Below, in pieces: positions 2,375-11,741 of a DNA stretch of 64,000 bases (position 1 is its first letter; every line of letters starts with the position of its first letter). The DNA lies in contig JAJYLW010000005.1 of assembly GCA_021787475.1 (NCBI GenBank), forward strand, positions 49,743-113,742, read 5' to 3'. Source of the stretch: Actinomycetes bacterium. GTDB taxonomy: Bacteria > Actinomycetota > Thermoleophilia > BMS3ABIN01. A program made the position numbers and the translations under genes. The notes below the pieces were generated by a model, which saw only the letters and a program-made list of their open reading frames with translations, ran no database searches and was not told where the DNA came from.

Positions 2375-3458
2375 TCAATCCGGCGCCGGGGCGGGCACGA
2401 TCGTCACCGTCCGCTTCAGCGTCCAGCGCCGCAGCAGCACCACTTCAATTACCCTGCCGATCACGTCTGCCGTCAGCAGCCGGTGAACATCGTCGAGGTT
2501 GGCGACTGGCCGGCCGGCAAAGGAGATGATGACGTCGCCCTCCTTCAGGCCGGCTCTGACGGCTGGAGATCCTGGGCTCACACCGGCGACAAACGCAGCA
2601 GAATCCTGCCGCAGGTTGAAATGCCGGGCAACACGGACCGGCAGCGGCACCGTCTGACCGTTGATGCCAAGGTAACCTCGTGTTACTCCCCCCCCCCCCC
2701 CCCCGCATCAGCAGGGTGATGACCCAGCGCATCGTGTTTACGGGAATGGCGAAGCAGATGCCTTGGGCAAACTGGATGATGGCGGTGCTGATACCGATCA
2801 CCTCGCCGCGGGGGATGATGGCGGTGCTGATACCGATCACCTCGCCGCGGGAATTCACCAGCGGACCGCCGCTGTTGCCGGGATTCAGGGCGGCGTCTGT
2901 CTGAATGATGTTCTCGATCAGCCGCCCGGAATAGCTGCGCAGCGACCGCCCCAGGGCGCTGATGACGCCGGAGGTAACGGTGCTCTGAAAGCCGAACGGA
3001 TTCCCGATCGCGATCGCCAGCTGGCCCACGCGCAGTTTCTCGGAGTTTCCTAGCGGGGCGCTCGGAAGCCCGGCGGCAGGCACCCTGATCAGGGCCAGGT
3101 CAGTGGCTGCGTCCCGGCCGGCGGCCTCGGCAGGGTATGATATACCGTCTGCCATGTTAACCCGGATGGCGCTGGCCCGTTCGATCACATGGCTGTTGGT
3201 GACAACATAGCCATCGGGCGCAATTATTACGCCGGAGCCGCTGCCTTCGGCCTCGGGCCGGCGCCGGCTGCGGGGGGCCTGTTTCTGCTTTACGGCGATA
3301 TGTACAACAGCAGGTCCATCTTTTTCCACGACGTCAACGACGGCGCGGGAATAGGCATCGAGAATCTCCGGGTCTTCCGGGATATCGGTCTCTTGTTTGG
3401 CACTGTTCGGGAACTCAAGGCCGGCAGGCCTCGCATCCGCAAGTTGTGTTTTTGTCAT
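2375..3458 (-). pseudogene. HtrA/DegP-type serine protease with PDZ domain, frameshifted at a 17-base homopolymer
   Basis: Protease part (SGSGVIIAPDGYVVTNSHV, TDLALIRV, NPGNSGGPLVNSRGEVIGI) reads in one frame to a G17 tract (C17 on +, 2688-2704); the PDZ part (TRGYLGINGQTVPLPVRVARHF...VAGVSPGSPAVRAGLKEGDVIISFAGRPV) continues in another frame. Confidence 0.85.
2775..2852. repeat. 39-bp exact tandem duplication inside the HtrA gene (13 aa)
   Basis: GATGATGGCGGTGCTGATACCGATCACCTCGCCGCGGG occurs at 2775 and 2814, giving GEVIGISTAIIPR-GEVIGISTAII. Confidence 0.95.
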
Positions 3459-10054: not shown

Positions 10055-10459
10055 ATGAGAAGGACGCGGCAACGATTTGGGAGGCTGCTGCTGTTGATCG
10101 GCCTCGCGCCGGCGGCAGCGATCTTCTTTTTTGCCTGCGGGTACGGTGGCGGCGGGTATGGAGCCGGCGGGACCTCGGTGGCCGGCACAACCACAGTCAC
10201 AGGCAACTCTGCCAGTGTCTCGATGAAGAACATCGCCTTTAATCCCGCCGACATCACCGTCAGCAAGGGCACAAAAGTGACCTGGGCCAACAATGACAAT
10301 GTCGCCCATACAGTCACGGCATCTGACGGCATGTTTGACTCGGGCAATGTAAATCCCGGTAAATCATTCAGCTTCACGTTCAATCAGGCAGGCACGTTTC
10401 CTTATTACTGCAGGTACCATGTATCGCTGGGCATGAAAGGAGAAGTGACGGTCAAATAG
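10055..10459 (+). CDS. Cupredoxin (plastocyanin-like) lipoprotein
   Basis: Lipobox FFACG; VAHTVTA...YYCRYHVSLGMKGEVTVK (H..C..H..M type 1 copper site). Confidence 0.9.
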   Translation: MRRTRQRFGRLLLLIGLAPAAAIFFFACGYGGGGYGAGGTSVAGTTTVTGNSASVSMKNIAFNPADITVSKGTKVTWANNDNVAHTVTASDGMFDSGNVNPGKSFSFTFNQAGTFPYYCRYHVSLGMKGEVTVK

Positions 10460-10514: not shown

Positions 10515-11741
10515 ATGAGCGATATGGCAGAGACGGCGCCTAAAAACAAAATAACGATCTATACTACGCCTGGTTGACCTTTTTGCCGCCGCCTGAAGGC
10601 TCTCTTCCGTGAGAGGGGAATCGATTTCAGCGAGAAAGATGTCGCGGGAGACCTGCTGGCGCTCGAAGAGATGCGCAGCCGCACCGGCAAGAGTTTCGTT
10701 CCCCAAATATTTATCGGCGATGAGTACGTCGGCGGCTACCAGGATTTTCTCATTCTCGACGCCAGGGGCGAGATCGACCGCAAGCTGGGACGGCCGCCGC
10801 ATCCGGCCCGGGAAGTTGCCGAAATCTTCGACATGATCATCATTGGCGGCGGACCCGCGGGGCTGGCCGCCGCAGTCTACGCAGCCCGGAAAGGCATGAA
10901 AACGGTGCTGCTTGCCGATCTGCTGGGGGGCCAGCCGATCCTGACCGCCGACATCGAGAACTACATGGGCTATCAATTTATCACCGGGCCGGAGCTTATG
11001 GCCAAGTTTGAGGAACAGGTGCGGCAGTTTCCCAATGTCGCCCTTGTTACCGGCGCGCCCGTCAGCCGGCTTGAACTGGATGGCGGTTTGAAAAAAGCGA
11101 CGGTGGAAACGGGCACGCCGTTTCTCGGACGGGCCGTCATCATTGCGTCCGGGAAGCAGCCGCGCCTTCTTAATATCCCCGGCGAGAGCGAATACGTCGG
11201 CCGGGGGGTCAGCTATTGCGCCACCTGTGATGCGCCCCTCTGCGCCGGCGAGAGCGTCATGGTTGCAGGCGGCGGCAATTCGGCCATGCAGGCGGCCCTG
11301 GAGCTGTCGGCAATCTGCCCGCATGTTCACCTGGTGGCGAAGGACAAGCTATCGGGCGACGAGGTGCTGATGGGAAAGGTGCTGTCCGAGGATCGCATCT
11401 GCAAGCACCTTGGCTGGCAGCCGGCCGAAATCAAGGGAGACGGCAATGAAGTCACGTCGGTGGTGATTGCCTCCATCGACGGAAAAGACAAGAAGGAGAT
11501 TGAGATCAGGGCGTTTTTTGTTGAAGCAGGCCTGCATCCGAACGCCGATTTTGCCGTCGGGCTGGTGCAACTTAACCACGAGGGAGAAATTGTTGTTGAT
11601 TGCGATTGCCGCACCGGCGTGGACGGGGTTTTTGCCGCCGGCGACGTCACCCAGGTAAGAGACAAGCAGATCGTGGTGGCGGCGGGAGAGGGCGCCAAGG
11701 CGGCCCTGTCGGCATATGAATATTTATTGGGGCAGAGATAA
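10515..11741 (+). CDS. Glutaredoxin-thioredoxin reductase fusion, predicted selenoprotein (UGA at 10575-10577 read as Sec)
   Basis: ATG10515: MSDMAETAPKNKITIYTTPG-U-PFCRRLKALFRERGIDFSEKDVAGDLLALEEMRSRTGKSFVPQIFIGDEYVGGYQDFL...then MIIIGGGPAGLAAAVYAARKG...SYCATCDAPLC...GVFAAGDVTQVRDKQIVVAAGEGAKAALSA. Same frame across the TGA; hairpin candidate downstream. Confidence 0.85.
10591..10632 (+). promoter_or_regulatory. Candidate bacterial SECIS-like hairpin
   Basis: CTGAA(10593-10597)...CTCTC(10600-10604)-TTCCGT-GAGAG(10611-10615)...TTCAG(10626-10630), starting about 15 nt after the in-frame TGA. Confidence 0.5.

Follow-up and report, generated by a model that had tools for sequence, protein, structure and literature searches.

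A predicted selenocysteine glutaredoxin fused to an AhpF-like flavin reductase in a family of Actinomycetota

The window analysed here, a 64,000-nucleotide stretch of DNA from an Actinomycetes bacterium, contains a gene whose mechanical open reading frame call begins at 10671, inside a glutaredoxin domain, so that the entire active site is missed, as the preliminary description had pointed out. Read from an ATG further upstream and through one in-frame TGA, the same frame joins a complete glutaredoxin domain to a flavoprotein of the thioredoxin reductase family. The features of the locus are:

10055-10459, forward strand: cupredoxin-domain gene (PF00127) for a probable lipoprotein, upstream of the fusion gene at a distance of 55 bp and its probable operon partner
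10515-11741, forward strand: predicted Sec-glutaredoxin/AhpF-like reductase fusion gene, read-through product of 408 aa with TGA as Sec; alternative start at ATG 10524
10551-10730, forward strand: glutaredoxin domain (Pfam), residues 13-72
10575-10577, forward strand: in-frame TGA, predicted Sec21 of the UPFC active site, kept in 16 family genomes
10584-10586, forward strand: TGC, resolving Cys24 of UPFC, invariant in alignment A2
10601-10619, forward strand: SECIS-type hairpin, 7-bp stem 10601-10607/10613-10619, loop CGTGA 10608-10612
10827-11729, forward strand: FAD/NAD(P)H thioredoxin-reductase/AhpF-like domain, residues 105-405, from profile matches
11217-11228, forward strand: redox-active CATC (Cys235, Cys238) of the reductase domain, a flavin-linked disulfide

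Elsewhere in the window, an HtrA/DegP-like protease frame at 2445-3458 (reverse strand) has a duplicated GEVIGISTAII segment and an apparently frameshifted C-terminus, and may be a pseudogene or an assembly error.

Between ATG 10515 and the TAA that ends at 11741, the TGA at 10575-10577 is the only in-frame stop, and it falls on the first position of UPFC, the catalytic cysteine position of glutaredoxins; both points bear out what had been proposed from the sequence of the window. The proposed start is less secure. The frame is open from ATG 10515, but ATG 10524 may equally be the start, because of the two it is the sole one with a counterpart in the closest relative (L056).

The N-terminal half matches the glutaredoxin profile PF00462 as a complete domain (65.7 bits against a gathering score of 22.9). 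It has a CPxC-type site, a cis-proline (VP) and a GG motif, with P63 and G73 invariant, and it scores below the NCBIfam cut-offs for Uxx-star (50.8 against 66), Grx3 (79.3 against 90) and YruB (61.8 against 88.55). The C-terminal half is a complete match to PF07992 (Pyr_redox_2; residues 105-393, 143 bits) and carries, with CATC, the Rossmann motifs GGGPAG and GGGNSA that mark low-Mr reductases and AhpF cores. It reaches neither the cut-off of the classical TrxB equivalog TIGR01292 (273.9 against 343.45 bits) nor that of AhpF TIGR03140 (316.5 against 502.9 bits, over profile positions 169-513 only). In an AF2 model (pLDDT 81, pTM 0.57, too weak to settle domain docking) the glutaredoxin fold is complete with residue 21 at the start of helix 1, and the best PDB match is the whole of AhpF, 4o5q. 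By profile and fold the flavoprotein half is thus nearer to the AhpF core and the Cp34-type reductase than to classical TrxB, and the fusion of a Sec-glutaredoxin to a flavin reductase put forward in the preliminary description is upheld with its "TrxR" renamed an AhpF-like TrxR-family reductase.

A hairpin begins 23 nt downstream of the UGA, in the conserved register TCTCTTC-CGTGA-GAGGGGA. Across 14 relatives, 93.9% of the cells in its stem are paired and three stem pairs show compensatory changes in which both sides are altered (8 cells), with one mismatched pair in six of the 14; none of 500 shuffles matched the observed pairing or covariation score, and all slid registers were worse. The hairpin noticed earlier is real and stands at a SECIS-like distance, but the register given for it, CTCTC-TTCCGT-GAGAG, is inferior to this one and was rejected: in its family-wide form, CCTCC/GGAGG, only 81.4% of the cells are paired. 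The bSECIS model describes a loop of 3-9 nt that has a G at position one or two, in many cases with G or U next after it, and a spacing of 16-37 nt (PMC13188914). Under the thresholds that we applied (stem of 4-16 bp, spacing of 16-37 nt, energy of -7.5 kcal/mol or lower), the loop of 5 with G second and then U, the 7-bp stem and the spacing of 30 nt all fit. On its own the window hairpin folds with an energy of -5.9 kcal/mol, short of the limit, and with flanks (57 nt) of -13.7 kcal/mol; the hairpin alone reaches the limit in half of the relatives (7/14). Since a 66-nt segment folds no better than shuffles (z = +1.0), the case for a SECIS rests on covariation and synonymous constraint. The top two of 380 six-codon windows for excess synonymous identity begin at codons +7 and +8 past the TGA, which is the hairpin, and all 14 relatives use CGT for the Arg. 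Relatives with a Cys codon in the fused gene form 3-6 of the 7 stem pairs and have no CGTG loop. From these comparisons, a SECIS-type hairpin is under selection. It appears to be specific to this gene, because a covariance model built on it yields no other strong match in this genome; an Rfam scan of the 64-kb window at gathering thresholds returned two tRNAs and nothing else.

Every one of the 16 family genomes with the fusion gene keeps the TGA, at 59-88% protein identity, so that chance does not account for it; the named members of this family are all MAGs, and in the other three of its 19 genomes, which are 69-89% complete, a fusion copy was not found. In one low-coverage MAG (G011, L032/L055) the fusion is thrown out of frame by an extra base inside the hairpin, possibly through an assembly error. 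Cysteine homologues that align with the U exist in fused and in split form. Among 299 genomes of the class, fused genes outside the family have TGC or TGT at this position (L040-L043, L153-L157), and so does a fused gene on a Desulfatiglandales contig (L057). Relatives have only TGA or Cys codons there, with none of the other disruptions that would be expected of random nonsense. In close pairs, pN/pS is 0.10-0.31 over the ten codons before the TGA, 0.19-0.23 over the 31 codons from the TGA to the conserved Met at 10671 and 0.12-0.21 over the rest of the gene, so that the regions flanking the TGA are comparable with the remainder, and purifying selection on both sides of it excludes a dead 5' end.

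The genome (assembly G000, 1.84 Mb, 98.7% complete) is equipped to decode selenocysteine, because selA, selB, tRNA-Sec (selC) and selD, for which a search had been advised, are all present. On contig C35 the genes for SelA (594 bits) and SelB (350 bits) lie beside that for tRNA-Sec (69 bits, anticodon TCA, that is UCA), and selD (367 bits) carries an in-frame TGA of its own. A second tRNA-Sec match, on C4, was rejected as a tRNA-Ser. The genome also has fdhA (820 bits), with an in-frame TGA at the textbook site VDHCARTU-HAP and a predicted GGUCU hairpin loop. Two AhpC/TSA-type genes with in-frame TGA, elsewhere in the assembly, are likely selenoprotein genes; they encode a TlpA/AhpC-type protein with FWKGQU-QGC (C13:16434-16724, L163) and a peroxiredoxin-like protein with RGHYU-PKDH (C9:21652-22017, L164). 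On C10 (110870-114966; L004, L161, L169) a Cys glutaredoxin (CPYC) is followed by a TlpA-like lipoprotein and, some 3 kb on, by a GCS2-type glutamate-cysteine ligase homologue.

We consider it nearly certain that 10515-11741 encodes a selenoprotein in which SelB and tRNA-Sec, aided by the downstream hairpin, insert selenocysteine at UGA 10575. The read-through frame, the domains, the active-site residues, selection, SECIS covariation and a complete Sec machinery, all read from sequence, argue for it. The two checks that the preliminary description had set against it, on selABCD and on the kind of change found at this site in relatives, both left it standing. If translation instead ended at the TGA, as a genuine stop or through a nonsense mutation, the functional protein would be a 356-aa reductase from ATG 10671, where the ORF caller starts and where a Met is conserved in 14 of 14 relatives. 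That same Met, however, is an ordinary position of the glutaredoxin domain in the Cys-fused relatives, and a start there would halve the domain. It is mainly the family-wide retention of the TGA and the purifying selection on the codons before it and between it and 10671 that refute a stop, together with the presence of the Sec machinery and a SECIS, and we regard this alternative as very improbable. Equally improbable is that a suppressor or an altered genetic code makes the UGA an ordinary codon, for Trp or Cys. An open frame by itself does not say which residue is inserted, but UGA terminates normally in the family, where stand-alone glutaredoxins of G008 and G006 end in TGA; the genome has a full Sec system, and the codon falls on a Sec-type active site as the sole TGA inside the gene. 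In the G008 glutaredoxin match, a CRFC protein, a reading of the TGA as Sec was rejected, because it marks the normal end of the gene.

Separate genes for the glutaredoxin and the reductase lie side by side in many phyla. In this split form a TGA is found at seven loci (L068, L076, L077, L080, L081, L083, L133) and Cys at the rest; the seven unfused Sec-glutaredoxin loci belong to Chloroflexota, Actinomycetota and a deltaproteobacterium. By these comparisons the form with Sec and fusion together is confined to one family, in a little-known branch of Actinomycetota, and on a tree of the reductase domain it is a single clade (SH-aLRT 100). That tree implies at least seven changes between Sec and Cys and at least three between fused and split, one of them perhaps a frame break in L044; it comes from a quick search, so its deep branches are provisional. 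In single-sequence folds, the hairpin loop of the split genes follows the UGA some 9 nt sooner than that of the fused genes does (loop GU at nt 26-28 from the T of TGA in the seven split Sec genes versus nt 35-36 in the fusion), an offset that is consistent with separate origins of Sec in the two forms. Close plasmid copies of the fusion were not found, the best plasmid matches being below 60% identity and annotated as AhpF.

In Clostridium pasteurianum the NADH thioredoxin reductase Cp34 drives the YruB-type glutaredoxin Cp9, which feeds the peroxiredoxin Cp20 (PMC3720550). Given the fusion, the AhpF-like fold and these split homologues, electrons probably pass along the one chain from NAD(P)H through FAD and CATC to Sec21/Cys24 and on to a substrate. 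In such a scheme NAD(P)H, probably NADH, would reduce the FAD, which would reduce the CATC disulfide; this in turn would reduce the selenenylsulfide formed by Sec21 and Cys24 in the N-terminal glutaredoxin domain, and the Sec21 selenol would then reduce a peroxiredoxin or another oxidised protein or thiol. NADH seems the likelier donor, because the fusion appears to read AKDKLSG where TrxB has the HRR motif that binds the 2'-phosphate of NADPH (PMC5627308). A peroxiredoxin is our tentative choice of substrate, held with somewhat less than even confidence. The fusion would be an additional system, since a classical Trx/TrxR pair exists separately, on C19.

The glutaredoxin of this selenoprotein might instead be reduced by glutathione or a different low-molecular thiol, or serve copper or metalloid chemistry with the cupredoxin, rather than work with its own reductase and a peroxiredoxin. 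Glutathione-site features of glutaredoxins are indeed kept (VPQIF, GGY), and the genome has a GCS2-type glutamate-cysteine ligase homologue, but the classical gshA (PF04262) is absent. At the locus, no peroxiredoxin gene adjoins the fusion, and the cupredoxin gene lies directly upstream in 15 of the 16 family loci (seen at L027, L028, L030-L039, L054 and L056, not found at L029) and in none of the 10 Cys-fused loci, a conserved link that the peroxiredoxin reading leaves unexplained. Against this, the fusion as such and the repeated occurrence of unfused glutaredoxin and reductase genes side by side in many phyla argue that the two are mutual partners, and the split homologues Cp9 and Cp34 feed a peroxiredoxin; we therefore think such a role unlikely. 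More speculative still is a lineage-specific two-gene module, in which an exported cupredoxin lipoprotein and a self-reducing selenoglutaredoxin, with a SECIS independent of that of the split genes, would serve copper or envelope redox homeostasis and not peroxide reduction.

Among known enzymes, AhpF has the same reductase core with an N-terminal thioredoxin-fold disulfide domain and is the best match in sequence and fold. Its N-terminal part is longer, with tandem thioredoxin folds, whereas the window protein has a single classic glutaredoxin domain and scores 316 against the AhpF cut-off of 503. Animal thioredoxin glutathione reductase (TGR) is built on an unrelated high-Mr reductase, with Sec at the C-terminal tail of that reductase. 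The window protein, with its low-Mr reductase and its predicted Sec in the glutaredoxin, differs on both counts and resembles TGR in that a glutaredoxin domain is attached to a thioredoxin reductase module (PMC3530482). The Cp9 and Cp34 pair likewise couples a small CPxC glutaredoxin to a reductase of the TrxR family (PMC3720550). The two are, however, separate Cys proteins whose operon also includes the peroxiredoxin, and not one chain with Sec at the attacking position and no peroxiredoxin adjoining. Stand-alone Sec glutaredoxins (Grx, UxxC) of Clostridium and Geobacter and a Sec homologue of the AhpF N-terminal domain are also known (PMC13188914, PMC1794560); these too have Sec in place of the first Cys at an active site of the Grx family, but they are listed as Grx or AhpF-NTD-like families, none of them fused to a flavin reductase. 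Sec-glutaredoxins and the split pair are thus already known, and we found no description of the Sec form fused to its reductase in the reviews searched or among the domain fusions of the GOS selenoproteome (PMC2398784), a search that covered freely accessible published papers; nor is it an above-cut-off NCBIfam family.

If decoded as predicted, the gene would add a domain architecture to the bacterial selenoproteome, one in which a selenium redox centre is joined to an NAD(P)H reductase of its own. Standard ORF calling, by starting at 10671, loses the whole active site of such a gene. With natural Cys counterparts at hand, the advantage of Sec over Cys would be measurable within one polypeptide, and the fusion-bearing family may serve as a test case for repeated interchange of Cys and Sec, accompanied by apparently independent SECIS elements.
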